Shown piece by piece: positions 3,704 to 49,142 of a stretch of DNA of 64,000 nt. The stretch is taken from NCBI RefSeq assembly GCF_000425585.1, contig NZ_KE384401.1, forward strand, positions 1 to 64,000. Reading direction: 5' to 3'. The DNA is from Terrimonas ferruginea DSM 30193. Lineage in GTDB: Bacteria > Bacteroidota > Bacteroidia > Chitinophagales > Chitinophagaceae. Position 1 is the first letter of the stretch. The number at the start of each line of letters is the position of its first letter. Below the pieces are notes generated by a model. It did not search any database. It saw only the letters and a program-made list of their open reading frames with translations, and was not told where the DNA came from. Made by a program: the position numbers and the translations under genes.

Positions 3704-3906
3704 AAGTAATAAGTAATAAGTCAAAAGTCAAAAGTGAGGAGCGTGAATAAGTCAATCAGTGAGTAAGTCAATATATTCACCAATCGGGATCAATATTCAG
3801 TTATTTACTAATCGACTTATTGCCGGCTATTACAGATCATTTTCTATTCACAATTGACAATTGAACATTCATTCTTTTGACTTTTGAATTTTTAATTTTG
3901 ACTTAA
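3704..3906. repeat. Intergenic heptamer arrays upstream of the sigma factor
   Basis: AAGTAAT-type units (about 3704-3720) run into TCAAAAG units (3720-3736), then GTGAATAAGTCAATCAGT-like units. A second TTTTGACTTTTGAATTTT block (about 3875-3906) ends 10 bases before the TTG start of the sigma factor and contains its upstream in-frame stop. No gene is seen between 3622 and 3915. Confidence 0.7.
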
Positions 3907-6358: not shown

Positions 6359-7378
6359 TTACTCTGTTGCAGGTGTTTTCTTTTGTGCGAGGATGCTCCA
6401 ACTGGAATCTTCGGCTACGATGGTATTGGATAAATGTCCCAGTTGATCGATGGCCATTTCCACTTTATCATTTGCCTGCAACCATTGTTCCTGGTAATTC
6501 GGATCGTTCAGTTTGCCCGTGCCGTTGAGCTCGAGGAAACATCCGGTGCCTACGGTGCCGCTCCCGATCACATCGCCGGGATACAGATCCACGCCATAGG
6601 AGGCGCGCTCGATGATCTCTGCAAAGGTCCAGTCCATATCACCGAGATTGCCTTCGCTCACCTGAACACCATTTACCCAGCATTTCATCTTCAGGTTCCA
6701 GCTTTTGCCGGTGTGATTTTCTTTCGCAGGAATTTCAAAGGCCTGCAATTCATCCAGCGTTACCAGCCAGGGGCCGATAACAGTAGAAAAGTCTTTGCCT
6801 TTGGCAGGTCCGAGGTTCAGCAACATTTCTTCCATTTGAAGACGTCTTGCGCTCATGTCGTTCATGATCATGATGCCGCCAATGTATTCGTCGGCACGTT
6901 CGGCAGGAATGTTACGGCCATGGCGGCAGATAACGATCGCCGCTTCCAGTTCGAAGTCGAGCTTTTCGAAATGATCCGGCATGGCGCGAAGTTCACCGGG
7001 ACCCTGTATGCCGTGGTGATTGGTAAAATAGAAAATGGGGTATTGGTCGAATTCGGGAATCATGTCCACTTTGCGGTTGCGGCGCGCAGCGGCCACGTGC
7101 TGACGAAAGGCATAACCATCGCGGCAGCTTGCAGGAAACGGCACGGGTGCCAGCAACTGCAACTGATCCACAGGAATGCCGCGGTTGCTCGTGCGCGTTC
7201 CTTCACGCAACATCAACTCTCCCGCCTGGGCAATATGAAAACTTTCGTCCCAGTAAGTAAGGAACATGTTCATACTATTGGGAAGATCGGGGTGCAGTAC
7301 TTCCATATCATATACAAGGTTGTTCACCAGCACGCCCAATTGTTCGCGTTCATCTTTCAGGTAGGAGACCAGTTTCAT
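6359..7378 (-). CDS. Fumarylacetoacetate hydrolase family protein
   Basis: A 339-residue enzyme of the FAH family, which cleaves C-C bonds in diketo acids or acts as hydratase, decarboxylase or isomerase in aromatic-compound degradation. The metal-site acidic residues are visible in DFELEAAIVI and in MIMNDMSARRLQ. The stretches NHHGIQGPG and PGDVIGSGTVGTG are typical of the fold. I use the ATG at 7378 (MKLVSYL) rather than the TTG two codons before it. No other tyrosine-degradation gene is adjacent, so the substrate is open. Confidence 0.85.
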   Translation of the reverse strand: MKLVSYLKDEREQLGVLVNNLVYDMEVLHPDLPNSMNMFLTYWDESFHIAQAGELMLREGTRTSNRGIPVDQLQLLAPVPFPASCRDGYAFRQHVAAARRNRKVDMIPEFDQYPIFYFTNHHGIQGPGELRAMPDHFEKLDFELEAAIVICRHGRNIPAERADEYIGGIMIMNDMSARRLQMEEMLLNLGPAKGKDFSTVIGPWLVTLDELQAFEIPAKENHTGKSWNLKMKCWVNGVQVSEGNLGDMDWTFAEIIERASYGVDLYPGDVIGSGTVGTGCFLELNGTGKLNDPNYQEQWLQANDKVEMAIDQLGHLSNTIVAEDSSWSILAQKKTPATE

Positions 7379-29740: not shown

Positions 29741-30208
29741 ATGGCCGCTAAATTGAATTTGGATAAATTGGATCTGCAGATCATTCAGCATATGATGGAG
29801 AATGCTGAGATTTCCTACGCCGATCTTGGAAAAAAATTATATGTGTCTGGTGGTACCATCCACGTCCGTATCAAAAAACTACAGGAAGCCGGTGTAGTAA
29901 AAGGCACCCGCCTCAATACCGATCTTAAAATGCTGGGCTACGATGTAATTGCTTTCATCGGTATTTATCTCAAAGAAAGTTCATTGTACGATACTGTTGC
30001 ACGTGAACTGCAGAAAATGCCCGAGATCGTCCGTCTCAATTACACCACCGGCAATTACAGCATGTTCGCCGAAATCGTGTGCAAAGATATTTCCCAACTC
30101 CGTTCAGTATTGCACGACCAGTTGCAAAAGATTAAAGGCATAGAACGTACCGAAACCTTTATTTCCCTGGAAGAAAGCTTTAGCAGGAATGTGCGGGTTA
30201 TTGCATAA
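29741..30208 (+). CDS. Lrp/AsnC family transcriptional regulator
   Basis: A 155-residue regulator with an N-terminal helix-turn-helix (residues about 8-60, LDLQIIQHMMENAEISYADLGKKLYVSGGTIHVRIKKL) and a C-terminal RAM/AsnC ligand-binding domain (VIAFIGIYLKESSLYDTVARELQKMPEIV, then the AEIVCKDI strand). It controls genes in response to amino acids or similar small molecules, and often its own gene. The A+T-rich stretch before the ATG has an imperfect dyad around AATAATAGAAATTATT (about 29678-29693), a possible self-binding site. Confidence 0.92.
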   Translation: MAAKLNLDKLDLQIIQHMMENAEISYADLGKKLYVSGGTIHVRIKKLQEAGVVKGTRLNTDLKMLGYDVIAFIGIYLKESSLYDTVARELQKMPEIVRLNYTTGNYSMFAEIVCKDISQLRSVLHDQLQKIKGIERTETFISLEESFSRNVRVIA

Positions 30209-36190: not shown

Positions 36191-38752
36191 CTACCTTTTC
36201 CTTTTCTTCGTCAGTATCTTCTCAAACTCCGGCTCTTCCCGGATATTCCTGAGCATAATATCCGCACGTACGCCGCCGATATTATAACCGATCAGCGACA
36301 TGGCTTTTTCCAGCATTTCCAGCGCTTCTTTCTTACGACCGGCTTCGGCACTCAACTGCGCCAGCCTGTAATACGCATCTCCAAACTTTTTATCCAGCTT
36401 TATTGTCGAACGGAAATATTTTTCCGCAGTCTCATATTCCTTCAATTGAAAGGATGCTTCGCCATAGTTATGATAATAAGTTGCCACCTCCGGAGCAAGA
36501 CGGATGGCTTCCGCATAGCGATTGCGCGCAGCTTCGTACTCTTCCATTTTGAACAGCACATTTCCCATCTGGTTATAAGCATATGTATCCAGGCTGTCAA
36601 TTTCCAGCGACTTATAAAGCGCGCCAAATGCCAGCGTATCTTTCCCCAAACGGGAAGCCGCTTCCGCATAACCTTTCCAGGAACTGGTGCTCATACTGTC
36701 CAGGTATAAAGCGGTGGCGAACATACTCAGGGCCGTGCTATCCATTTCATACTCCAGCGATAAGTTGCCAATGCTCTGATAGGTGACCGGGTTTTCGGGA
36801 TCGAGGCTGGTCATTTTGTTGACATAATATGACGTGCTATCGGTATTGCCCATTCGTACATGCACCTGCATCGCGCCTTCCAGCGGATAGATGACCGTAC
36901 TGTCCACCTTCATGGCCTGGTAATAATATTGCAATGCTTCGGGGTATAATTTCCGGTAAAGATGAAAATGTCCGAGCAGCGTCCACAGGTAGGGATCGTT
37001 CGGATCTTTTTTCAATCCCTGTTTGATAAAATAAACGGCCGAATCCGGTTTATTGTAAGTATGATAATACAACATGCCTATTCCGGCGTAAGTGGTCTGG
37101 TAATTACTATCGATGATAATAGCCCTGCGGAAATATTTCATTGCCGAGTCCCCGCGGCTGCGATCAGCAAAGGATACGCCGAGATTGAAAATGGGATACA
37201 ACCAGTTCGGTGCAAGCTTTACACCGGTGCGGTAAGCTTTCTCCGCTTCCTCGGGCTGGCCGATAAAACTATGCATCAGGCCTTTCAGGTTATACAAATA
37301 AGCCGCCTGCGGTTTTAAAGCAATGGCGCTATCGACTTTGCGCAAGCTGAGATACTGATCTGTGCGTTTGTCGGAACGCCAGTTGGCATGCCCCTCGAGA
37401 AATAATAAGTTAACCTGTACATCCAGCGGGTTGTAATAGGCCGTATCGGCCACTTCGCGGAATACGCGCAGTTTGTTGGCGGCCGTCATGAAATAGGGAT
37501 AAGTATACAGGTTGTTGTTCTGCGCTGCATTCAGGTAGGTCCGGATCACTTTGGACACATCGCCCATCAGCAGGCTGCTGAGTTCGAACTTCAATTCATT
37601 AATTACCTGCGGAGAGAGTTTCGGATGCTTCAATACCTTGTTCAATAATTCATAGGCGCTGCCGGAGCCGATAAGTTCGTCGTTGTTCAGTGCGCGCATA
37701 TATTGCTGGTACCATTCCGTTAAACCAGCCGCCTTCATTTCTTCTTCGAGTCCGCCTCCGCGACCAACTGCGAGTAATGCATCTTCTTTCGTCATGCCTC
37801 CCCAGTTGCCGGCCTGCAGACGCTGCGCCAGTGCCTGTTTTTGTTCTGCCGTTACCGTGCTCAGCACCATCCCGTCGCGTTCGGTGCAGCAGTAGCGCGG
37901 GGTTTGTTTGTACTCTTTGGTGGTTTTGTCGTAGGAAGCGCGGTTCACATTTTTCTTTACATAGTCATACAACTCTGCCAACGTTACTTCACCGTCTTCC
38001 GGATCGGTATCGGCCATTCCCCTTAATCCATTGATGAAGTGCCAGGAAAATAATCCTCTGCCGCCACCCCAGCGCGCGTCTTCAAACGAGACCTGGTTGG
38101 AGGAGCAGGAAATGAATTGTATTTCTCCGGCTTTCCGTTCAAATATTTGCTGGTAAGCGATCGTAAGGCCTTCTTCTTTTCCCGGCAGTTCATTGGTGCG
38201 GCAGGCATCGGTGATCAGCACTACCTGCACGCCTTTGCGGGTTAACTCTTCGATCCGGACTTTAAGTTTATGAATATCGATGAGGCCAATGCCGGTTGAG
38301 TAATTGTTGCGGTCATTACCGGGAGGTGCGTCATACGCCAGCAGGTAAGCCTCATCGGCGCGGTAGGCATCGCCGTGGCCGGAAAAATAGATATAGAATA
38401 CATCGCCCTTCTGCAGTTTGTCTTTGAACCGGTTGAATTTTTTCCAGAACTCCATGAAACTGGCCTTTTCATTCATCAGCGTATCTACATTGGCCGATGG
38501 TAGCCGGCCACCGTCCTGTGCAACCAGGTAGCGATAAAATTCGCGGGCATCTTCATCGGCATAACGCAAAGAGCGATACGTATTGATATCCTCGTAACGC
38601 GAAATACCGGTGATAAGTGCGTACGCATTACCACTGAGCTTCATGGTATCGGTGCTTTCCGTAATGGTGCCTTTGGTAACGGGCTGGGCAAACGTTAAGC
38701 AGCAGATACAACAAGCCACAAGTAGCAGCGACAGTTGGAATAACGGTTTCAT
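36191..38752 (-). CDS. Exported caspase with C-terminal TPR array (caspase 2)
   Basis: An 853-residue protein with a signal peptide (MKPLFQLSLLLVACCICCLTFAQ). The C14 domain comes first (about residues 40-290), with His126 (YFSGHGD) and Cys184 in TDACRTNELPG. The DACRT form differs from the DACHSG of the other three caspases. From about 430 to 850 there are many TPR units (YQTTYAGIGMLYYHTYNKPDSAVYFIKQGL, YHNYGEASFQLKEYETAEKYF), suggesting protein partners or substrates. The ATG at 38752 begins the signal peptide. Its promoter carries the TACCC-N6-GGGTA operator (38812-38827). It is probably a separate transcript downstream of caspase 3 on the same strand. Confidence 0.9.
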   Translation of the reverse strand: MKPLFQLSLLLVACCICCLTFAQPVTKGTITESTDTMKLSGNAYALITGISRYEDINTYRSLRYADEDAREFYRYLVAQDGGRLPSANVDTLMNEKASFMEFWKKFNRFKDKLQKGDVFYIYFSGHGDAYRADEAYLLAYDAPPGNDRNNYSTGIGLIDIHKLKVRIEELTRKGVQVVLITDACRTNELPGKEEGLTIAYQQIFERKAGEIQFISCSSNQVSFEDARWGGGRGLFSWHFINGLRGMADTDPEDGEVTLAELYDYVKKNVNRASYDKTTKEYKQTPRYCCTERDGMVLSTVTAEQKQALAQRLQAGNWGGMTKEDALLAVGRGGGLEEEMKAAGLTEWYQQYMRALNNDELIGSGSAYELLNKVLKHPKLSPQVINELKFELSSLLMGDVSKVIRTYLNAAQNNNLYTYPYFMTAANKLRVFREVADTAYYNPLDVQVNLLFLEGHANWRSDKRTDQYLSLRKVDSAIALKPQAAYLYNLKGLMHSFIGQPEEAEKAYRTGVKLAPNWLYPIFNLGVSFADRSRGDSAMKYFRRAIIIDSNYQTTYAGIGMLYYHTYNKPDSAVYFIKQGLKKDPNDPYLWTLLGHFHLYRKLYPEALQYYYQAMKVDSTVIYPLEGAMQVHVRMGNTDSTSYYVNKMTSLDPENPVTYQSIGNLSLEYEMDSTALSMFATALYLDSMSTSSWKGYAEAASRLGKDTLAFGALYKSLEIDSLDTYAYNQMGNVLFKMEEYEAARNRYAEAIRLAPEVATYYHNYGEASFQLKEYETAEKYFRSTIKLDKKFGDAYYRLAQLSAEAGRKKEALEMLEKAMSLIGYNIGGVRADIMLRNIREEPEFEKILTKKRKR

Positions 38753-38786
38753 AATAGCGAAATGCAAAGGGCATTTGGTGGAAAAC

Positions 38787-38827
38787 TAGGCATTGCGGCT
38801 TTTATCTCCTATACCCGTCTCAGGGTA
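38787..38827 (-). promoter_or_regulatory. Operator and -7-like box of caspase 2 (TACCC-N6-GGGTA-N23-TA)
   Basis: On the minus strand, TACCC (38827-38823), six bases, GGGTA (38816-38812), 23 bases, then TAGTTTTC (from 38788) as a -7-like box, 36 bases before the ATG. The same layout with identical spacings stands before the HtrA-like gene and caspase 4. The -33 position carries no TTTG, so the promoter probably needs an activator bound at the dyad. Confidence 0.7.
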
Positions 38828-38831
38828 TTCT

Positions 38832-41800
38832 TTACAATTCCCAGTCGTATTCGCTCGTTTCCTGCCTGGATGTAGGTTGCTGAAGGCCGTTGGTTAACTG
38901 CTCCACGCGGCGGCTTACATGTTGTCTTAATGCACTGATGCGGATACTTTCCGGTTGTTGATTGAGCGCTTCGAGAATGGCATAAGTAAACACGCCGTTG
39001 CCAAGTGTACCTCTTTCCTGTGCAAACTGCGTTCCCGCCGCCGCGGAAATAATGGTTGCCCCGGTGCCTCTGCCCACATTGATGAAAAGGGATTGCATCA
39101 GCTCAAAACTATTCTGAAGTCCGATGCGTCCGCCGTCGTCGGTGGATTCTGTAATGCCTCCTTTGGTCGTAATACCTTTTGTGGCCAGTCCGCCGGATGC
39201 TTGTTTTATTTTTTCAAATTCCTCTTTATCTACTTCTCCGCTATGGCAGGCATCGATGAGCAGCAGCTTTCTGCGCTGCGGGATGCCGTCCAGCAGGTTT
39301 TCAAGTTGCTCGTAAGGCAAGCCGTTTGATGACGGATTGCTGAATGCAATATTGTAAGTGGAGAGATAATAGTCGAACTGCTGATCCAGCAGGCCGTGAC
39401 CCGAATAAGCGATCACCACTTTGTCGTTGTGATTGCCGGTTTTCAGCTTTTCTTTTAAGGCAATGATATTGTCAACGGTTACGCGTTCATCAAATAAGGT
39501 ATCTGCTATGATCAGGCGGTCTCCGTATTTTTTGCGGAAGGTCGCGGTGAGGTCGCGGATATCTTTTACGCTCCAGCGGAGATTGTGTGCGCTGTCGGCA
39601 AACCGGTTGATGCCAATGCCTGCAAAGTAAAGCCGGCCTTCGGTTTCGGCTGATGACGGATAATTTACAAAAAGCGGCGTCCGGGAACTCTCCAACCCGC
39701 CCGCATCAGACAAAGCCGCCTCAATCCGGTTTTCTCCCGGAGATAAGAGGATGCTGAGGGAGGTGTCGATATTTGTGGTATTGACACGGATGCCGGTTTT
39801 GGTAAACACGGGCACCTCATTGATCCAGATATGCAAATAACCGGTTGGTGTTGTAAGCAGTCCCTTTAAATGCAAGGGAAGTTGCGGTTGTTCCTGCACG
39901 TAGCTGAGCTCGCTCCGGTTGGCAATGCCGAGCTGCGGCAATAAATTTTTTTGCGAAGCAAGACTATCGATACCCGCTTTTTTCAGCCGTTTGGTAAAAG
40001 CTTTTTGATAGGCCCGGATCAATAAAGTATCAGTCGTATTTAGAGAGGAAAGAACGAGGTCTGGCCGGTTGTAACGAAGATCAAAACTGGAAAAGGAAAC
40101 AACTTTTTCATCCACCAGCATGTTTAGCCGGTTGGAGCGGCCTTTTGTTTTATAAAAGCCTTCCGGTGTGTAAACCACATATTGATCCGCGCCGAAAGAA
40201 ATCCAGTTTGTTGCGGTTGCCTGTGGCTGCGTGTAGGGAATTACACGGATCTTGTTTTCGTTATTTGAAATCAGCGCGAGATATTCTTCGTTCAATGCAT
40301 AATAAAACGCTTTTTCTCCTGCCGTGTTTGGCAGGGAATACATGCGGTTTTTGTCCTGCTGCCAGATGCGGATACTATCGCTGTTGAAAAACGCCATGAT
40401 AAACGGATGCGCAGAGACGATCACATGTTGTGGTGCTTCTGTTACCGCGAAACTCCGATACAGCGATCCGTCCTTTTTGCTGGTAAGTGAAACAGCGGGT
40501 TTTACGGGTTCAATGCCTTTTACCATGCGGAAGAAGCGCCCGAGCCGGAGCGTATCGAACTGGTATTTTTCCATGCGGGCAAAAAAATCATTCGCCGTTT
40601 CGGCGCCGCAGGCTCTCATGTAAAAAAGATCACGGTCCATCACATCCCAGGCGGAGGTTTCCTTCGTTAAACCAGCTGCGGCGATAAAAATGTCGGGCAC
40701 CTGGTAGGCCGGTAGTTTGCGCGGATCGCAGGTTTTAGGTAATCCTTCGGGATTGAAAAACGACCACTCGACATCCGAAGATCCTCTCATGGTATAACGA
40801 TGAACGCCTGCACCGGCGAGTCCTTCTTTTAGTGCATCGCTCTGCGCCTTTAATAAAGAGCGTTGATCTTTATCGAACCGGAAAACAATGGCACTGCTAA
40901 AAAAACCGATATCCGGTTTTTGTACGGTGTCGACGAGATAAAGATTGTCTTTGAAGGTGTACCGGTAAACGGCACCGCTGGTGTGGTGCGAGTAAATCGT
41001 GTCTCCGGCTTCGGAAAAAGTTACATCATAAGCAATATGATCCGGTAGTGCAATTGATTGTTGCAAACCTGCGGATGACAAATCCCAGAACCTCAAAACA
41101 CAACCCCGCGAACCGAAATGTGTGGTGATCATTTCGCGGTTGCCACGCAAATACACACCGGTCAACTGTGGCGTCGGATCTTCCTCGAGTTCTCCGGTTT
41201 TCTTTCCCGATTCAATATTGATCACCTCTACATTACCAAAGAAATTGCCGCAAAACAAGGAACGGTCCTGTACGCAGATGCTGGTATAAGAAGCCGGAAC
41301 GGCAGACTGATAAAAACGGGATTCCGCCACTTTTCCCTCAAACGGCATTTGTAAAACGCGTTGGTTATTTGTGCCGATAAAGATTTTTTTCCTGGTACTG
41401 TCTGCATATACTCCCTGTACCAGTTCTCCTTTTTCACCGCCCTTTACGGGTATGATGGTTGATCGGATTCCCGCAGCACTGAAATCCAGGCGCAACAGAT
41501 TTCCCTCGCGGGCAACAAAGGCGGTATTGTTTCCTGCAAAATCGTAACCATACATACCGGTACAGTAATTGGCGGCCGCCGCAATTTTTTTCCCGGCAGT
41601 ATCAATGATTAATTGTTCATGTATACCCAGGAGATAAAGCCGGTTGGCCGTTTCTCTGATGGAAAAAACGGCGTCGGAGGAAAAAGGAATCGAGCGGTAA
41701 GGCTTGCCATTCAGCAATTGCGTTTCATTGGCAAACGAATAAATCTTTTTCTCCGACACGACTCTTACTATCGCGCCATTGCTGATTGCGCTTACACGGT

Positions 41801-42158
41801 CGTTAAGGATATGAGCGGATTTGCTGATTTGCCGGGCAGACAATACATGTTGCAAATCGAAAATATCCATGCCCTTGTCTCCTGCCACCAGTAGATACTG
41901 CTTGTACAATCGTGCATCATTCACTTCGTTTTGGGAAGAATTGGTGCGCAGTACTATTTTCTTCTCGGCACGATTCCACACGAGTACTCCTCCATCAGCC
42001 GCTATCACGATGTATTGTTCGCGTGAGATGGGCAATATTTTTTTTATAGCAGCCGTGAATCCTGTTTGATAGGAAATGTCAATTTTCTGGCCATGGACAA
42101 CAGTATTCCAGGCGCAGGCAAACAAGAGGCATAGGAGGAACAGGAAAATTTTTTTCAT
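38832..42158 (-). CDS. Exported beta-propeller-like protein with C-terminal caspase domain (caspase 3)
   Basis: An 1108-residue protein with a signal peptide (MKKIFLFLLCLLFACAWNTVVHGQ). Propeller-like blades cover about 30-650 (DGGVLVWNRAEKKIVLRT, VLRFWDLSSAGLQQSIALP), then a linker and a C14 domain from about 840. His921 (AYSGHG) and Cys971 (LIDACHSGE) are present. The end NGLQQPTSRQE then YDWEL matches that of caspase 1, so the two are paralogues. It begins 15 bases after a lipoprotein gene, so the two form an operon. That operon is read from the divergent control region at 43149-43316. Confidence 0.9.
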   Translation of the reverse strand: MKKIFLFLLCLLFACAWNTVVHGQKIDISYQTGFTAAIKKILPISREQYIVIAADGGVLVWNRAEKKIVLRTNSSQNEVNDARLYKQYLLVAGDKGMDIFDLQHVLSARQISKSAHILNDRVSAISNGAIVRVVSEKKIYSFANETQLLNGKPYRSIPFSSDAVFSIRETANRLYLLGIHEQLIIDTAGKKIAAAANYCTGMYGYDFAGNNTAFVAREGNLLRLDFSAAGIRSTIIPVKGGEKGELVQGVYADSTRKKIFIGTNNQRVLQMPFEGKVAESRFYQSAVPASYTSICVQDRSLFCGNFFGNVEVINIESGKKTGELEEDPTPQLTGVYLRGNREMITTHFGSRGCVLRFWDLSSAGLQQSIALPDHIAYDVTFSEAGDTIYSHHTSGAVYRYTFKDNLYLVDTVQKPDIGFFSSAIVFRFDKDQRSLLKAQSDALKEGLAGAGVHRYTMRGSSDVEWSFFNPEGLPKTCDPRKLPAYQVPDIFIAAAGLTKETSAWDVMDRDLFYMRACGAETANDFFARMEKYQFDTLRLGRFFRMVKGIEPVKPAVSLTSKKDGSLYRSFAVTEAPQHVIVSAHPFIMAFFNSDSIRIWQQDKNRMYSLPNTAGEKAFYYALNEEYLALISNNENKIRVIPYTQPQATATNWISFGADQYVVYTPEGFYKTKGRSNRLNMLVDEKVVSFSSFDLRYNRPDLVLSSLNTTDTLLIRAYQKAFTKRLKKAGIDSLASQKNLLPQLGIANRSELSYVQEQPQLPLHLKGLLTTPTGYLHIWINEVPVFTKTGIRVNTTNIDTSLSILLSPGENRIEAALSDAGGLESSRTPLFVNYPSSAETEGRLYFAGIGINRFADSAHNLRWSVKDIRDLTATFRKKYGDRLIIADTLFDERVTVDNIIALKEKLKTGNHNDKVVIAYSGHGLLDQQFDYYLSTYNIAFSNPSSNGLPYEQLENLLDGIPQRRKLLLIDACHSGEVDKEEFEKIKQASGGLATKGITTKGGITESTDDGGRIGLQNSFELMQSLFINVGRGTGATIISAAAGTQFAQERGTLGNGVFTYAILEALNQQPESIRISALRQHVSRRVEQLTNGLQQPTSRQETSEYDWEL

Positions 42159-42173
42159 GCAGGGTGTATTGGA

Positions 42174-43148
42174 CTATTGCAGCTCGTCGGGCAATAGTTT
42201 TTGATTGATCACTTTCTGGAAATTCTTTTCATTCGATTCGAGGAGGCGACCGGCATTATCGAGCAGTACCCGGCTGACAAATACGTCTTTACTGCTTTCT
42301 TTTACGTTGACACGGATATTGTAAACGCCCTGGCTCCAGCTTTTCTTCAAATCTTTTCCATCCATATAATAACCAAAGGACCGCGGCACGATAAAGGACC
42401 GGCCGATGATACGCGTGCGGGAAGGCAGGCTGTCGTAGTAAGCTTTGAAGCCGGGATCATTGTGATCGAGCGGCGCATCCCGCAGGGTGAAATAAAATTT
42501 TCCCAATGTCACATTGTCGAAAAGCTGACCGTGTTCATTAACGTAAGAGGTAGTGAAAACGATCTCGAAGTCCATGTTGAGCTTTTTCTTTTTGCGCCGC
42601 GGAACTTTTGCTTTTGCATAATACAACTGGAACTTTTCGAGCCGAAGTCTGAACATGGAGTTGTTGATGATTTCGCTGAGGCTGGTGGTATCGAGGCGGA
42701 AAGTGGCGGTAAAAGCGGTGTCCAGTCCACCTGCTTTGTTGCGGAAGGTGCGGCACAAAGAGAAGCCGCTGAACTGCATACCTACCGGATCGAAAGCGCT
42801 TTGGGAGGATAATTGGTCATAGAAATACAGGTCGCTCAGGGAAAAAGGGTAAGCTGCAGCGTATTTACTTTTTTCATTGGCGATCATCTTTTTTACCGTA
42901 TTTACGCCGAGCGAAACAAGGCTGCCGGTGGCGGAGGCCAGGGAAATACCACGGTTGCCCAGACCACGGGTGGCCAGGGTCGGGATTTCCTGCTCGCGGA
43001 GTTTGGCAAACTGTACAATATCCGGTTTCTGTTTGATCTCCATGTTTTCCCGCGAAGCGCTGACAGCCGATCCTTCCCTGGCCGAACGGCATGAAACCAG
43101 TGCCAATGCTGCCATAGCGACGAAAACGCCAACCCTTCTATCCCTCAT
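42174..43148 (-). CDS. Lipoprotein in operon with caspase 3
   Basis: A 324-residue lipoprotein (signal ending LALVSC, lipid site at Cys20). I do not recognise the family. The protein has a Gly/Ser stretch (GLGNRGISLASATGSLVSLGVN) and a basic KRRK-like segment (VPRRKKKKLNMDFE). The C-terminal half looks beta-rich. It is the first gene of a two-gene operon with caspase 3, 15 bases apart, and is divergent from the HtrA-like protease gene. It could be a substrate, anchor or inhibitor of the peptidase; none of these is shown. Confidence 0.75.
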   Translation of the reverse strand: MRDRRVGVFVAMAALALVSCRSAREGSAVSASRENMEIKQKPDIVQFAKLREQEIPTLATRGLGNRGISLASATGSLVSLGVNTVKKMIANEKSKYAAAYPFSLSDLYFYDQLSSQSAFDPVGMQFSGFSLCRTFRNKAGGLDTAFTATFRLDTTSLSEIINNSMFRLRLEKFQLYYAKAKVPRRKKKKLNMDFEIVFTTSYVNEHGQLFDNVTLGKFYFTLRDAPLDHNDPGFKAYYDSLPSRTRIIGRSFIVPRSFGYYMDGKDLKKSWSQGVYNIRVNVKESSKDVFVSRVLLDNAGRLLESNEKNFQKVINQKLLPDELQ

Positions 43149-43171
43149 TGTATGTTATTTTGGGAACAAAA

Positions 43172-43253
43172 TACAGAGAAACGGTAACCCGGGGAATACC
43201 CTCTTGTACCCTTTTTGGGGTACATAAAAAATTGCGGCTTCAGGGTATTTTCG
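43172..43253. promoter_or_regulatory. Divergent control region with three to four TACCC/GGGTA half-sites
   Basis: On the plus strand: TACCC (43197-43201), TACCC (43207-43211), six bases, GGGTA (43218-43222), 23 bases, TATTTTCG (43246-43253) as -7-like box of the HtrA-like gene. On the minus strand the half-site at 43201-43197 reads GGGTA and is also followed after 23 bases by TATTTTG (43173-43167), a possible -7 box for the lipoprotein/caspase 3 operon. One cluster of half-sites may thus drive both directions. Confidence 0.65.
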
Positions 43254-43316
43254 CCAGTTGACAATTGCCATACATTCGAACCGTCAATACTCATTAACCA
43301 CCTTCATTTTACTAAA

Positions 43317-44831
43317 ATGAAAAAGATTGTTTTTCTTCTTGCGGCAAGTGTCATGATGATCCCGGCCGCTTTTGCCCAAAAAACCAGCGCTTCCAAAATG
43401 CTGGACAAAGCGCTCAGCAGCGTAGTAACCGTTGCCGTGTATGAGAGTGGCGTTGGCAACAAAACCCTTGGTTTCCGTGGCAATTCTTCCGAAATGGCTT
43501 ATGCACGTGCACTCGATCTTACCGGCGCACAAGGCAGCGGTTCTGGTTTTGTGATCCAGGAAAACGGCAAATACTATGTGATCACCAATGCACACGTGAT
43601 CGAAAGTGCCGCCGACAAAAAAGGCAGCATCTATGTATACAGTATCAACTACACCAAATACGAAGCAAAAATTGTAGGCGGCGATTCGTTTTACGACCTG
43701 GCCGTACTGGAGTTTACCGGCAAACCGGGAGCAGAGATTACTTCTATTGCATTCCGCAAAAATGATATTGACGTGGGAGAACCCGTGTATGCCATCGGCA
43801 ACCCGCTCGGGGATTATCCCTACTCCGTTTCCGAAGGAATTATCAGTGCCAAGAACCGTGTACGCGGCGGCCTGACCGGCAAATTTGGTTTTCTGCAAAC
43901 AACCGCTACCGTTATCTGGGGCAACAGCGGCGGTCCGCTGGTAGATGCCAATGGCGAAGTGGCGGGCATCAACTCACAAATCGCATTTGCAGATCGTGGC
44001 GACCAGAGTATCTGGCAGCCGCAGATCAACTTTGCACTCGAAGCCGGTATCTCCCGCAGGCTGATCACCGATATTCTTACTAATAAAGGGCTGGTGAAAC
44101 GAGCTTATATCGGCGTGGAAATCGCTGCGGCAAAACCCAACACATCCAACCGCAATTCACTGCGCGCTTCTGCTAATGTGGAAACCCGACCCGTGATCAG
44201 TGGCGTTGTTCCCGGAAGCCCGGCTGCTGCTGCATTAGCATCGTACAAAGGATATGTGGTGGAAGCGGTGAACGGACAGAATGTACGCAGTATTGAAGAG
44301 GTGCTGGGACAATTTGAGAAAACAATGCCCGGTCAGGATATCCAATTCCGTTTGAGCCTCAACGGCAGTACGCAAACGGTAAAAGTAACCACGCGCGCAT
44401 CCAATGCCACTACAATGACCTCGATCAGTGATTATGTGTCATCGGCCTGGGGCGGTCGTTTGCTCAGCGGCACTGAAAACCTGACGATCAACTTCAATAA
44501 TCCGCAGAAATATGCAGCTTATCGCAACCAGGCATCAGAAGGTATCTGGTACGTAGGCAATACCAATAACAGCTTGCCCAGCAATACACTTTTCAGTAAC
44601 GACTGGATCGTGATTGCTGCGGGCATTATTTCAAAAACCGGCGGTCAGGTATGGCGTGTATCGGATGCGGCCGATCTTGCGGCGGCGTTGCGTTTGGGCG
44701 GTTCTACCGGTATTATCGACCTGGTATTGTTCCGCAAAGGCGGCAATCCGGAAGATGACAGCAATTATATCCAAAAACGTTTCGTATTATCGGGCAGTGA
44801 TGCGGTGTTTAAGCAGACGCTTTGGTATTAG
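43317..44831 (+). CDS. Exported HtrA-like serine protease (trypsin fold plus PDZ)
   Basis: A 504-residue S1C-type protease. The signal peptide is MKKIVFLLAASVMMIPAAFA. The catalytic triad is complete: His93 (TNAHV), Asp127 (FYDLAVLEF) and Ser204 (GNSGGPL). A PDZ-like domain lies at about 280-360 (GVVPGSPAAAALASYKGYVVEAVNGQNV). The C-terminal 140 residues have no family I recognise. The ATG at 43317 starts the signal peptide; a longer frame back to 43215 would cross the promoter. In HtrA-type proteins the PDZ domain senses unfolded or cleaved substrate. It probably works in the periplasm with the exported caspases. Confidence 0.9.
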   Translation: MKKIVFLLAASVMMIPAAFAQKTSASKMLDKALSSVVTVAVYESGVGNKTLGFRGNSSEMAYARALDLTGAQGSGSGFVIQENGKYYVITNAHVIESAADKKGSIYVYSINYTKYEAKIVGGDSFYDLAVLEFTGKPGAEITSIAFRKNDIDVGEPVYAIGNPLGDYPYSVSEGIISAKNRVRGGLTGKFGFLQTTATVIWGNSGGPLVDANGEVAGINSQIAFADRGDQSIWQPQINFALEAGISRRLITDILTNKGLVKRAYIGVEIAAAKPNTSNRNSLRASANVETRPVISGVVPGSPAAAALASYKGYVVEAVNGQNVRSIEEVLGQFEKTMPGQDIQFRLSLNGSTQTVKVTTRASNATTMTSISDYVSSAWGGRLLSGTENLTINFNNPQKYAAYRNQASEGIWYVGNTNNSLPSNTLFSNDWIVIAAGIISKTGGQVWRVSDAADLAAALRLGGSTGIIDLVLFRKGGNPEDDSNYIQKRFVLSGSDAVFKQTLWY

Positions 44832-44832
44832 G

Positions 44833-44996
44833 GACAATCGTGAATGGTGAATCGTCAATAAGTGAATCAGTGAAGCCCCTTGCGCTTTAATAGCTCTGCC
44901 GCCTTGCGTGAAAAAAAGCGCGGGGTTTCCCGTAAAGAAGTTAAGGAGCAAGAATCCCTATTACTTATAACTTAATACCTAAAACTTACTACTTAG
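44833..44996. repeat. Mixed array island before the CHASE2 gene
   Basis: CGTGAATGGTGAATCGTCAAT-like units (about 44840-44862) are followed by a degenerate CGTGAAAAAAAGCGCGGGG / AAGTTAAGGAGC element (about 44905-44952), then TTACTTATAACTTAATACC-type units (about 44960-44996). The last unit ends in TAG, the in-frame stop directly before the TTG start of the CHASE2 gene. Confidence 0.65.
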
Positions 44997-46178
44997 TTGA
45001 AAAAATACCTCTTTAAACGCGACACGCTTCTGGCTACGGCCTGCGTATTCCTGATCATGGGCCTTTTCTCGCTGTTGCCTTTGAATACGCATTTGTTTGA
45101 TCCGATTAAAATGGCATTATCGGACCTGAGTTTTAATGACCTGGCGTTTTCGGTGATCAAATCGCACAAAGACAATGGTATTGATAAAAGGATCGTGGTA
45201 GTGGATATTGGGCAGTCGTCACGAGCAGATATTGCGGCTACGATTGATTCGATCAATAAAGGAAATCCTTCGACGGTAGCGCTCGATATTACGTTCGCGG
45301 GTCCGAAAGAACCGGCGGCAGATTCCGCATTGCGCAGCGCATTGAGCAATACAAAACAATTGGTGCTGGCAGAAAAGATCGCGTTTCACGGTGATAGCCT
45401 GCAAAGCGCACCGAATTATTTCCGCACACCAAATGCAACGGTTGGTTATATAAATTTCATCGGGGAAGAAGATGCCGTTATCCGGCATTACTCTCCTTCG
45501 GAAACTACAGCCGACAGCACATACCAGAGCTTTACTTCGCAGATCGTGCGCCTGAGCAACCTGCAAAGTTTCGAGCAACTGAGCCATCGCCCGCAAGGCT
45601 CAACCCTGATCACTTATCGCCGCGATGCCAGTCAATACCTGACCATCGACCATGCAGCAATGCTGCGCGGAGAAGTTGATTTGTCAGTACTAAACGGAAA
45701 GATCGTATTGGTCGGATTGGCCAATACGAATGCAAACGATATCGAAGACAAATTCTTTACACCACTTAATAAAAAGTTCGCAGGCAAATCCACTCCTGAC
45801 CTGAATGGCATTTACATACATGCGAATATCCTTTCGATGGTCATGGACCAGGATTATACAAAGAAAATTCCGGGCTGGCTGATGATGCTCGTTTCGGTAA
45901 TCGTTGTATGGTTGCACATGGCATTTTTCCTTAAGTATTATATTGAGAAGCATATTTGGTTTCACCTGGTGGTGAAGAGTGTACAACTGGTGTCAGCCGT
46001 GCTCTTCATCTATTTTGGCATATTGCTGATCAGTAAGGCCGGTATACAGGCCAACTTCACCATGATGCTCGGCGGTGTGGTGCTGGCGGTAGACGTATTG
46101 TATTTCTATGAGGGATTGGCACAATGGCTGCGCAAAAAATTTCATATCTCAACGGTATTTCCAGGAGACCATCATTAA
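44997..46178 (+). CDS. CHASE2-domain membrane protein
   Basis: A 393-residue membrane protein with one N-terminal helix (about 12-30), a CHASE2 extracellular sensor (about 35-285; VVVDIGQSSRADIAATIDSINKGNPSTVALDITF, then GKIVLVGLANTNANDIEDKFFTP) and three C-terminal helices (about 292-372). No kinase, cyclase or other output domain follows, so it must signal through partners or serve in structure. CHASE2 proteins beside FecR-like and caspase/CHAT genes are known in cyanobacteria and other phyla. The start is TTG at 44997, directly preceded by in-frame TAG in an AAGTTTT-type array. It is followed after 8 bases by the FecR-like gene. Confidence 0.87.
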   Translation: MKKYLFKRDTLLATACVFLIMGLFSLLPLNTHLFDPIKMALSDLSFNDLAFSVIKSHKDNGIDKRIVVVDIGQSSRADIAATIDSINKGNPSTVALDITFAGPKEPAADSALRSALSNTKQLVLAEKIAFHGDSLQSAPNYFRTPNATVGYINFIGEEDAVIRHYSPSETTADSTYQSFTSQIVRLSNLQSFEQLSHRPQGSTLITYRRDASQYLTIDHAAMLRGEVDLSVLNGKIVLVGLANTNANDIEDKFFTPLNKKFAGKSTPDLNGIYIHANILSMVMDQDYTKKIPGWLMMLVSVIVVWLHMAFFLKYYIEKHIWFHLVVKSVQLVSAVLFIYFGILLISKAGIQANFTMMLGGVVLAVDVLYFYEGLAQWLRKKFHISTVFPGDHH

Positions 46179-46186
46179 TATTTTTT

Positions 46187-46996
46187 ATGAAAACGTTTTT
46201 GCTACTGCTGTGTTTGGTATTTGCGGTTGGTGCCGCCGCCCAGGACAGCCTGCTTGTTTTTGAATTGAAAGGGAAGGCGTATTTAAAAACCCTGGACAAT
46301 AAAATTCAACCACTGAAAGTCGGAAATAAATTTTATGCCTATCATTCAAGACTCGAAATAGATAAAGGCAGTTCAATTACGCTGGTGAGCGATACTTACA
46401 AAGCGCTCACGTTTACAAAAAGTATGGCAATGGTTGATATCCGCAAGACGTTTCACCCCGGAAAAAATACGGACGTAACCGGAAAATACTTTGCGTATGT
46501 ATGGGAGCAATTCACTCACAAACATGGGTCACCCGAAGCAGACCGGCGTAAGTATATGAGCAATGCGGGAGGAGTGGCGCGCGGTTGCCCCGGTGTGGAT
46601 GCAGACCATTTGCCCGATACCATTTACTATACCGGGAAGTCTTTGGTATTTAACATTACGCATAAACTTCCCGCAGGCCGGCTGCAACTGGCTTTTCAAA
46701 ATGCCGATTCAGCCTGGCGTATAAATGTTGATCCTTCGGCCGTATTTTTTCCTGCAACGGAACAGCTGAAGCCCGGCACCTCCTGGAAATGGTTTTTGCT
46801 GATCGACAGGCAACAACCGTGCAAGGAAGGTGTAATCATTTATATGACACGTGCCCAATACCTGCTCAAAGAAAAGGAACTCAACAAGCAGGTGATCGTA
46901 TCTGATCCGCTGGAGGCCTCGAATATGCTGGCTTTCCTCCTGGAGGCGTCGGGCTACCTGGATGCCGCGCAGGACATTTACCGCAACAATCATTAA
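46187..46996 (+). CDS. Secreted FecR-like protein
   Basis: A 269-residue exported protein (signal peptide MKTFLLLLCLVFAVGAAAQ). The next 80 residues fit a FecR-type beta-sandwich (LKGKAYLKTLDNKIQPLKVGNKFYAYHSRLEIDKGSSITLVSD). The C-terminal half is unassigned (KLPAGRLQLAFQNADSAWRINV, and a last helix LEASNMLAFLLEASGYLDAAQDIY). I take the ATG at 46187, eight bases after the CHASE2 stop. FecR domains usually contact anti-sigma systems or outer-membrane partners. The gene lies between CHASE2 and caspase 4. Confidence 0.7.
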   Translation: MKTFLLLLCLVFAVGAAAQDSLLVFELKGKAYLKTLDNKIQPLKVGNKFYAYHSRLEIDKGSSITLVSDTYKALTFTKSMAMVDIRKTFHPGKNTDVTGKYFAYVWEQFTHKHGSPEADRRKYMSNAGGVARGCPGVDADHLPDTIYYTGKSLVFNITHKLPAGRLQLAFQNADSAWRINVDPSAVFFPATEQLKPGTSWKWFLLIDRQQPCKEGVIIYMTRAQYLLKEKELNKQVIVSDPLEASNMLAFLLEASGYLDAAQDIYRNNH

Positions 46997-47007
46997 CAAA
47001 TTGCAAA

Positions 47008-47054
47008 TACCCAAAAGGGGGTATTGGGCTGCCTTATCAAAGCGGGTACTTTTA
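47008..47054 (+). promoter_or_regulatory. Operator and -7-like box of caspase 4 (TACCC-N6-GGGTA-N23-TA)
   Basis: TACCC (47008-47012), six bases, GGGTA (47019-47023), 23 bases, then TACTTTTA (47047-47054) as -7-like box, 62 bases before the ATG. The dyad and the distance to the box are the same as at 38787-38827 and 43207-43253. The third GGG before the box (47044-47046) is also shared with the HtrA-like promoter. Confidence 0.75.
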
Positions 47055-47108: not shown

Positions 47109-49142
47109 ATGCGTTCACTTTTCTTCACCTTTCTGATCCTGCTCGGCCTTGGGGCCATGGCGCAGAAGAAGCATGCGCTGATCATCGCCATCGGTGATTA
47201 TCCCGATCCGGAAGTCAATATGTGGAAGCCCATCAGTTCCGCCAATGACGTTCCCCTCGTCCGCGGAGCCCTGGAAGCGCAGCAGTTCAATGATATTGCC
47301 GTGCTGCAGGACAAACAGGCCACCAAGCAGGGTATCGTGGATGCGCTTGACAAACTTATTGCCAACGCAGGTTTGGGAGATGTGGTAGTGATTCATATTT
47401 CCAGCCACGGCTCACAAATTGAAGACGACAATGGGGACGAAGCCGACGGCCTCGACGAAGCGATCGTTCCTTATGGCGCCACCTATACCTATGATCCGGA
47501 AGAATTTTCTAAATATGCACCCGGTTATCTGCGCGATGATGAATTTGGAGAAAAGATTACCCGGCTCCGCAACAAACTGGGCAAGGACGGTGATCTGCTG
47601 GTGGTGATCGATGCCTGTCATTCCGGCTCGGCCACGCGCGATGTGGATCCGGCCAATGCACCACTGGTCCGCGGCGGTTTTCAACCGATCGTCAGCAGCT
47701 CATTCAAAACGAACAACGCCAGCAGAGGCAATAATACAGACTTCCGCGAGTCCGGCGCTACCGCTCTTTCCGATGTAGCATCGCCTTATGTCGTGATCTC
47801 CGGAGCGCAGGCATCAGAAAAAAATTACGAATGCTGGAGCGACGACCGCAAGCCCGTCGGCTCACTATCTTATGCATTCAGCAAAGCACTCGCCTCTAAA
47901 GACGAAAAAGTAAGCTACCGTACACTGTTCTCTTCCATCGAAAATATCATGCTGAGTAAGGCACCGAAACAACGCCCGGTGCTCGAGACCGACAATTCCG
48001 ACCGCGGTATTTTTTCCAACCGCTTTATCTCACAGAAATTGTATTACACGCTCGACCTGCGTGAAAGTTCCGCCAGCGAATTTTTGGTAAATGCGGGTGC
48101 CGTAGCCGGTCTTACCAAAGGTTCTGTCGTGAAACTCTACCCTGTTGGCACCACCGATCCATCGGGAAAAAAAGAACTGGCGACAGGTAAGATCACACAG
48201 GTTGACAATTTCAAAGCAACACTGAAGCTCGACAAACCCAATGAAGCGCTACTGGAAAAAGGAGCCTGGGCGTTTGTTACCGAACTCGCCTACGGAAATG
48301 ATAAAGTGCGTCTGTCCGTAAAAGACGTCAACGGCAGCAAACGCAAAGTAGCGGAAGGGCTCAAAGACTTCAAACTGGTTGACTTTACCGGTCCGTACGA
48401 CCTGGAGCTATCGCCATCGTCCGATGGTAAATGGCACCTGAAGTACACTACATCCGGAGATGCATTCGGCGAGGCAGTTGATTTTACAACAGCCGACGGT
48501 ATAGCCAAATTGAAAGAGGCGATCAAAACATTTGACAAGGTCCGCTATCTCCGCAACATGGATATAACTGAAGCCGGTCTCAAGGCCCAGGTAGATATGT
48601 TGCTGGTAAAAGACGGCGAAGTAGATGAAGCGCTGACAAAATCGCGCTATGTAAACGGCCGGCTTGAATTGCGTGTGGGCGACCAGGTGCGTTTGCGCGT
48701 GATCAATACGGGTGACAAAGCATTTTATGTAAATGTGGTAGACATCCAGCCCGACGGCATCGTGAATCCCATTTTGCCCAATAAAAAATTAAAAGACCGC
48801 AACAAACGGCCGGCACCTGTTACCGCAGCAGATTGCCGCGTGGAAAAAGGCGACACATTGAATATCCTCAACACGATGGCCATCACGATAGGTCCGCCTT
48901 TAGGCAACGAAGTGTTCAAAGTATTCCTGTCTTCCGACATGCTCGACCTGGAAGAAATACTGGTAACGGCACGTGCAGAAGAATTGAAGGGAACACAGGG
49001 ACGCGGCACATTTACAAAACTGGAGTCGCTGTTCAAAGGAGCGGAAGTGAATGATAAAGGTACCCGCGGCGGAGACGTAAATGTGGAGACGGAACAGACC
49101 GGTACAACGTTCAGCAAACCGTTCACGATTGTCGCTAAATAA
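47109..49142 (+). CDS. Exported metacaspase-like protein (caspase 4)
   Basis: A 677-residue protein. Signal peptide MRSLFFTFLILLGLGAMAQ, then directly a C14 domain (about 20-300) of the metacaspase type: His100 (HISSHGSQ) followed by DNGDEADGLDEAIVPYG, and Cys170 (VIDACHSGSATRD). The long C-terminal part has a DUF-like beta-rich segment (GLTKGSVVKLYPVG) and a stretch resembling a DUF4384 domain (GDQVRLRVINTGDKAFYVNVVDIQPDG). It may bind cell-envelope ligands. The ATG at 47109 follows the operator and promoter, so an upstream frame extension is excluded. It is followed by a small secreted protein with no terminator between. Confidence 0.92.
   Translation: MRSLFFTFLILLGLGAMAQKKHALIIAIGDYPDPEVNMWKPISSANDVPLVRGALEAQQFNDIAVLQDKQATKQGIVDALDKLIANAGLGDVVVIHISSHGSQIEDDNGDEADGLDEAIVPYGATYTYDPEEFSKYAPGYLRDDEFGEKITRLRNKLGKDGDLLVVIDACHSGSATRDVDPANAPLVRGGFQPIVSSSFKTNNASRGNNTDFRESGATALSDVASPYVVISGAQASEKNYECWSDDRKPVGSLSYAFSKALASKDEKVSYRTLFSSIENIMLSKAPKQRPVLETDNSDRGIFSNRFISQKLYYTLDLRESSASEFLVNAGAVAGLTKGSVVKLYPVGTTDPSGKKELATGKITQVDNFKATLKLDKPNEALLEKGAWAFVTELAYGNDKVRLSVKDVNGSKRKVAEGLKDFKLVDFTGPYDLELSPSSDGKWHLKYTTSGDAFGEAVDFTTADGIAKLKEAIKTFDKVRYLRNMDITEAGLKAQVDMLLVKDGEVDEALTKSRYVNGRLELRVGDQVRLRVINTGDKAFYVNVVDIQPDGIVNPILPNKKLKDRNKRPAPVTAADCRVEKGDTLNILNTMAITIGPPLGNEVFKVFLSSDMLDLEEILVTARAEELKGTQGRGTFTKLESLFKGAEVNDKGTRGGDVNVETEQTGTTFSKPFTIVAK

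Follow-up and report, generated by a model that had tools for sequence, protein, structure and literature searches.

Genes and dyads of the cluster

The window analysed here, a 64-kb stretch of DNA from Terrimonas ferruginea, encodes four caspases (caspases 1–4), all of which score above the Pfam cut-off for PF00656. Caspase 2 (36191–38752, minus strand) is an exported Peptidase_C14 protein with TPR repeats (Pfam PF00656, TPR), and caspase 3 (38832–42158, minus strand), with a C-terminal Peptidase_C14 domain (PF00656), is the upstream neighbour of the first of the dyads described below. A 324-aa protein without a Pfam match (42174–43148, minus strand) is encoded divergently from an HtrA/trypsin-like exported serine protease (43317–44831, plus strand; PF13365). 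Downstream of the HtrA gene follow a CHASE2-domain protein (44997–46178, plus strand; PF05226), a 290-aa protein without a Pfam match (46124–46996, plus strand) and caspase 4 (47109–49142, plus strand), an exported caspase (PF00656) with a weak DUF4384 match. Bacterial Peptidase_C14 proteins (metacaspases/orthocaspases) are often exported, carry TPR or WD40 repeats and are common in Bacteroidota (PMC3501461); caspases 2 and 4 of the cluster resemble these known homologs in being exported Peptidase_C14 proteins and, for caspase 2, in the TPR repeats.

Three exact TACCC-N6-GGGTA dyads are found upstream of these genes. Site 1, TACCCTGAGACGGGTA (38812–38827, minus strand), lies 5′ of caspase 2, the ATG of which follows about 60 bases after the dyad; site 2, TACCCTTTTTGGGGTA (43207–43222, plus strand), is located in the divergent gap between the HtrA gene and the 42174–43148 (minus) unit; and site 3, TACCCAAAAGGGGGTA (47008–47023, plus strand), lies 5′ of caspase 4. 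Each is followed 23 bases downstream by a putative −7 box, namely TAGTTTTC (38781–38788, minus strand) for site 1, TATTTTCG (43246–43253, plus strand) for site 2 and TACTTTTA (47047–47054, plus strand) for site 3. The initial annotation of this DNA had claimed three dyads with a constant gap of 6, a constant distance of 23 bases to the box and no further dyad in the window; the coordinates, gaps and distances proved exact, and the 64 kb hold no other perfect TACCC-N6-GGGTA. Shuffled sequence gave a mean of 0.06 perfect dyads (maximum 1) against the three observed, Markov simulations gave 0.017 against three for the dyad followed by N22–24 and TAnnTT, and a relaxed-arm dyad with the box at exactly N23 was seen three times in the window and never in the simulations. 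Chance is thereby excluded as the source of the three dyads. When two mismatches are allowed the window contains 24 dyads against 15.6 expected, and these are mostly noise.

The box had been described as TAnTTTT, but the box of the HtrA promoter reads TATTTTC and fits at 6 of 7 positions; all three boxes agree better with the Bacteroidota −7 box, TAnnTTTG, from which they differ at one or two positions. The claim that the promoters have no TTTG at −33 is correct for sites 1 and 2 only, as ATTG occupies the corresponding position at site 3. In many homologous promoters of the family a TTG directly follows the dyad, and the −33 TTG and the −7 TAnnTTTG are both present at many of them.

In the whole 4.69-Mb genome the perfect dyad occurs seven times, compared with once for a reversed-pattern control. 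Six of the seven are intergenic and located 5′ of signal-peptide genes: the three window sites before caspase 2, HtrA and caspase 4, a fourth (C7:92491) 5′ of an exported 605-aa TPR protein and followed by exactly N23-TATTTTT, and two more, with about N22 and weaker boxes, 5′ of a 274-aa protein that weakly matches the RHS repeat and of a DUF7738 protein of 177 aa. The seventh (C18:71339) lies inside a GH20 gene, and we reject it as a regulon member and regard it as a chance occurrence. Dyads with one mismatch number 95 in the genome against 67 for the reversed control, which is too noisy to define a regulon. Three looser dyads with plausible spacing, at C4:306357 (minus), C2:340728 (minus) and C6:73009 (plus), precede genes that by eye are carotenoid-desaturase-like, PspC-like and fabG-like, respectively.

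Occurrence in the family and in orthologous clusters

The arrangement was sought in 299 family genomes (most likely Chitinophagaceae, judging by the nearest named relatives) by two spacing scans. The first allowed TACCC, a gap of 2–12, GGGTA, a gap of 12–34 and TAnnTTTG, and among the 150 matches listed the combinations of gap 6 with N22 and with N23 accounted for 11 and 10, with most of the other of the 253 cells of gap and spacing at 0–2. The second allowed TACC, a gap of 3–14, GGTATTG, a gap of 14–26 and TAnnTTTG; here, gap 8 with N19–21 after the TTG accounted for 60 of the 150 matches listed and gap 7 with N20 for 10, which for the relaxed dyad TACC-N8-GGTA places the box 22–24 bases on. 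Dyad gaps other than the 6/8 type were without excess, except for N7 at the promoters of regulator genes and at some others. As the peaks of the scans are sharp, the simplest explanation is that selection has fixed both the dyad gap and the box spacing throughout the family. In four genomes of one genus (g9; G009, G206, G259 and G300) 33 bases separate the dyad from the downstream TATATTTG, which exceeds the usual spacing by one helical turn (11 bp), and at the one such locus examined (L099) no obvious gene was found downstream.

An ortholog of the HtrA protease was absent from 60 relatives searched, including a genome of the same genus, and conservation was therefore tested on clusters from named genomes. 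Flaviaesturariibacter aridisoli (L199) and a Chitinophagaceae metagenome-assembled genome, hereafter the MAG (L202), encode thioredoxin, caspase, HtrA, CHASE2, a caspase-TPR protein and homologs of the 290-aa and 324-aa proteins in a rearranged order. In F. aridisoli one dyad lies 5′ of a caspase-HtrA-CHASE2 operon (6512, plus strand) and another 5′ of the caspase-TPR gene (16140, minus strand), both with N23, and the MAG has the same two placements with exactly N23 to the −7 box; the HtrA gene is internal to the operon in both and has no dyad of its own. Mucilaginibacter limnophilus (L204), which belongs to another class, has a cluster with four N23 dyad-box pairs with TACT/AGTA arms, located before the genes for caspase 4, the HtrA protease and an exported protein of 142 aa, one of the dyads being read both ways. 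In all three clusters, both strands of a single dyad are followed by a −7 box, at N23 or N24. Thus the exact 23-base spacing, proposed at the outset as something to look for in relatives, is kept in the three clusters though cores and arms have changed. No dyad was found near HtrA at four other loci (L198, L200, L201 and L203).

A small exported protein of about 135–142 aa with a similar layout is also encoded in these clusters, at 6456 (minus) in F. aridisoli, 6493 (minus) in the MAG and 8691–8263 (minus) in M. limnophilus, where the copy lacks a Pfam match. It starts behind the dyad at N23–24 in each cluster, and from this position it is probably an extra member of the regulon.

We further asked for the dyad in the region from −250 to +60 of the start codon of 85 usable caspase genes drawn from 150 family genomes. 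TACC-N8-GGTA occurs 16 times, in 14 of the 85 genes, whereas eleven permutations of the arm letters together give two occurrences, TACC and GGTA at other gaps are seen 0 or 1 time each, and none of 27 TonB-plug (TonB-receptor) genes carries the dyad upstream. The enrichment before caspase genes expected by the initial annotation was in this way borne out; the 85 genes are paralogs, and the 16 occurrences are therefore not fully independent. Small gene-level controls gave only p=0.016, and one of them was contaminated by neighbours that share the dyad with a caspase gene. In nine of the 14 dyad-bearing genes a TAnnTT box follows 21–23 bases on, and the starts of the proteins, judged by eye, are signal-peptide-like. 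CHASE2 and HtrA genes come under the dyad as operon members or as divergent partners, as at a locus where it lies between a caspase gene and a divergent CHASE2 gene (L298), and HtrA has its own dyad only where it leads a unit. Divergent CHASE2/caspase neighbours recur in several genera (G117:C9, G013:C83, G074:C121, G099:C10, G028:C4 and G020:C40). Apparently cytosolic caspase genes at three loci (L291, L253 and L313) have TACCTA-N4-TAGGTA-like palindromes upstream (two copies each in L291 and L253) that lack the usual box spacing, and perhaps these belong to a different regulator.

A conserved ~65-nt transcript, consisting of GGTTTTTCATAGGATATTGGATTTTAAAA followed by a terminator hairpin with a variable stem, is predicted 3′ of the operator-promoter arrangement at T. 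ferruginea C5 ~3840–3870 (L216, minus strand) and at L030, L031, L046, L085, L088, L172, L175, L176, L178, L179 and L195, and the arrangement precedes it in 12/12 sequences found. The 5′ part of the transcript is similar to the FopS sRNA family of Bacteroides (RF04319, 20 bits, E 0.24, below the cut-off; Rfam; PMC11697453).

Site geometry and candidate regulators

The initial annotation had noted that the dyad can be read as two half-sites in the 7-2-7 geometry of NarL/LuxR-type regulators, and this reading agrees with the published site TACCCCTAAAGGGGTA, the engineered 7-2-7 site with which binding and co-crystal studies of E. coli NarL were done (PMC4549865). Here too, two inverted heptamers lie 2 bp apart in 16 bp, with TAC(C/T)(C/T)-type ends, and the homologs carry TACC-N8-GGTA or TAC(T/C)-N8. 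The Bacteroidota −7 box is placed at −12 to −5 (PMC9723704), which together with N22–23 would put the centre of the dyad at −42.5 to −43.5 by sequence, within the range of a class II position (centre near −41 to −45). The NarL-activated napF and yeaR promoters have 7-2-7 sites at −40/−49 and −38/−47 (PMC4549865).

No LuxR-type regulator was found in the 64-kb window; the genome encodes 29 GerE proteins. A HisKA_3 kinase and a Response_reg/GerE regulator are encoded as a pair beside the caspase clusters of F. aridisoli and the MAG, the only clusters where such a pair was found beside caspase loci. Each pair has a dyad before its own promoter, TACCCGCTTCTAGGTA in the MAG and TACCCGCTTTTAAGTA, with one arm mismatch, in F. 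aridisoli, in both cases N23 before GACCTTG. At another locus (L081) the site lies upstream of an operon for a HisKA_3 kinase and a NarL-type regulator, and in four species of genus g29 it is upstream of a NarL-type regulator gene. The candidates are NarL/FixJ-like in composition, with Response_reg and GerE domains, about 210 aa and a HisKA_3-type partner kinase; the regulators at L199, L081 and L120 match PF00072 and PF00196 in Pfam. The F. aridisoli regulator has VraR and NarL structures among its best PDB matches, and its kinase has HATPase_c with HisKA_3 just under the cut-off. The closest match to this regulator in T. ferruginea is 39% identical, and there is no close ortholog.

Eight orthologs of the g29 regulator (66–75% identity), including that of T. 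ferruginea, are rsmG-adjacent and have a 15-bp dyad of the TACC-N7-GGTA type 22–23 bases before a −7 box. In T. ferruginea this rsmG-adjacent regulator is the only one with a dyad of the class in its own promoter, with a gap of 7 and different arms. Caspase sites favour TACC(C/A/T)..GGGTA and rsmG-adjacent regulator sites TACCAC..GTGGTA, a difference suggestive of paralogous regulators whose sites are related, and more than one NarL-type paralog probably serves the regulon. A further TACC-N7/8-GGTA dyad is located just 3′ of the rsmG-adjacent regulator gene (T. ferruginea C19 ~20287; L120, L238; also L113–L119) in all eight genomes examined outside genus g29; the stretch that follows is short, has a terminator-like hairpin end where inspected and is possibly a second small RNA.

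Models of regulation and their meaning

We suggest, with a probability of roughly 0.8, that the dyad is an operator at which a NarL/FixJ-family response regulator (LuxR-type, GerE-domain) activates, in the class II manner, a regulon of exported caspases, HtrA and CHASE2. The two half-sites, TACC(C)nn and 2 bases apart, would lie at about −51 to −36 and abut the −33 region of what would be a Bacteroidota promoter of the housekeeping type with weak elements of its own. There, the regulator could bind the dyad as a phosphorylated dimer next to sigma and recruit RNA polymerase, so that the exported caspases, the HtrA-like protease and the CHASE2 partner would be co-induced as one regulon. For T. 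ferruginea we infer the binding protein, its control by phosphorylation and activation over repression, and the signal is perhaps envelope stress. Enrichment, retained spacing, geometry and position all argue for the real regulon of exported caspases and a serine protease claimed by the initial annotation, which drew the regulon too narrowly; other exported proteins, regulator genes and a small RNA appear to belong to it as well.

We favor activation because the spacing is nearly invariant, the promoter elements are weak and the position is of class II. A repressor that occupies the dyad over the −35 region and blocks polymerase, with the genes derepressed under stress, could also be read from a dyad that abuts the −33 region, as a perfect short palindrome suits many repressors and NarL itself represses some promoters (PMC4549865). 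We consider it improbable, though, since repressor sites usually vary in position and seldom keep one spacing across families, whereas the dyad-box spacing here stays at 22–24, in most cases 22 or 23 exactly, across families and in one other class; furthermore, the window boxes are off consensus, two of them lack a −33 element, and the regulator genes have the dyad at an activator position. More doubtful still is binding of the dyad by a regulator that is not of the NarL type, for instance the Lrp/AsnC protein encoded in the window (29741–30208) or the product of the LacI-type gene beside the F. aridisoli cluster. Both genes are near caspase genes, but Lrp or LacI neighbours are no constant feature of the sites across the family, the dyad matches a published NarL site, and the same operator class precedes NarL-type regulator and kinase-regulator genes.

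Dyads at sites 1 and 3 begin a few bases past the upstream stop codon in short intergenic gaps, and with arms that extend to 6–7 bp they could fold in the upstream transcript as RNA hairpins or terminator-like structures. This is very unlikely in view of site 2 and many homologs, which lie in divergent or larger gaps, the absence of a T-run and the conserved spacing to a downstream −7 box, present on both strands of the single dyads in the F. aridisoli, MAG and M. limnophilus clusters. An ECF-sigma promoter was rejected, as the 23-base distance from arm to box exceeds the usual ECF −35/−10 spacing.

Activation by a NarL-type regulator would place these promoters beside known systems. The E. 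coli NarL/NarP 7-2-7 sites (napF, yeaR and the engineered narG −89/−89) are likewise 16-bp dyads with the centre near −43, beside the −33/−35 region of polymerase, and the engineered site has the form TACCC-N6-GGGTA; in contrast to E. coli, the promoter here appears to be of the Bacteroidota type (TAnnTTTG), and in place of nitrate respiration the targets comprise caspases, HtrA, TPR proteins, regulators and an sRNA. GacA/UvrY, which is of the NarL/FixJ type, has the upstream activating sequence TGTAAG-N6-CTTACA before RsmY/RsmZ, and this system shares with the present one a dyad with a 6-base gap and sRNA genes among the targets. Here, however, the arms differ, the sRNA is FopS-like instead of CsrA-titrating, and protein genes also carry the site. 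No promoter-level regulon of bacterial caspases was found in the open-licence literature searched; the type of site is already known, and its use for a conserved exported caspase/HtrA/CHASE2 regulon was likewise not found in that literature.

Bacterial caspases are widespread and their triggers largely unknown, and the conserved operator would name a regulator family and a set of partner genes for them and yields defined promoters for reporter assays. The regulatory code, TACC-N8-GGTA followed after 22–24 bases by TAnnTTTG, may be used in a poorly mapped phylum and would tie two-component signalling to proteases and a FopS-like sRNA. More tentatively, and with clear doubt on our part, one NarL-type regulator family could be a master switch in Chitinophagaceae and relatives for exported caspases with HtrA/CHASE2 and the FopS-like sRNA, with the caspases as the output of a two-component stress or self-proteolysis programme, which, if true, would represent a GacA-like architecture outside Proteobacteria.
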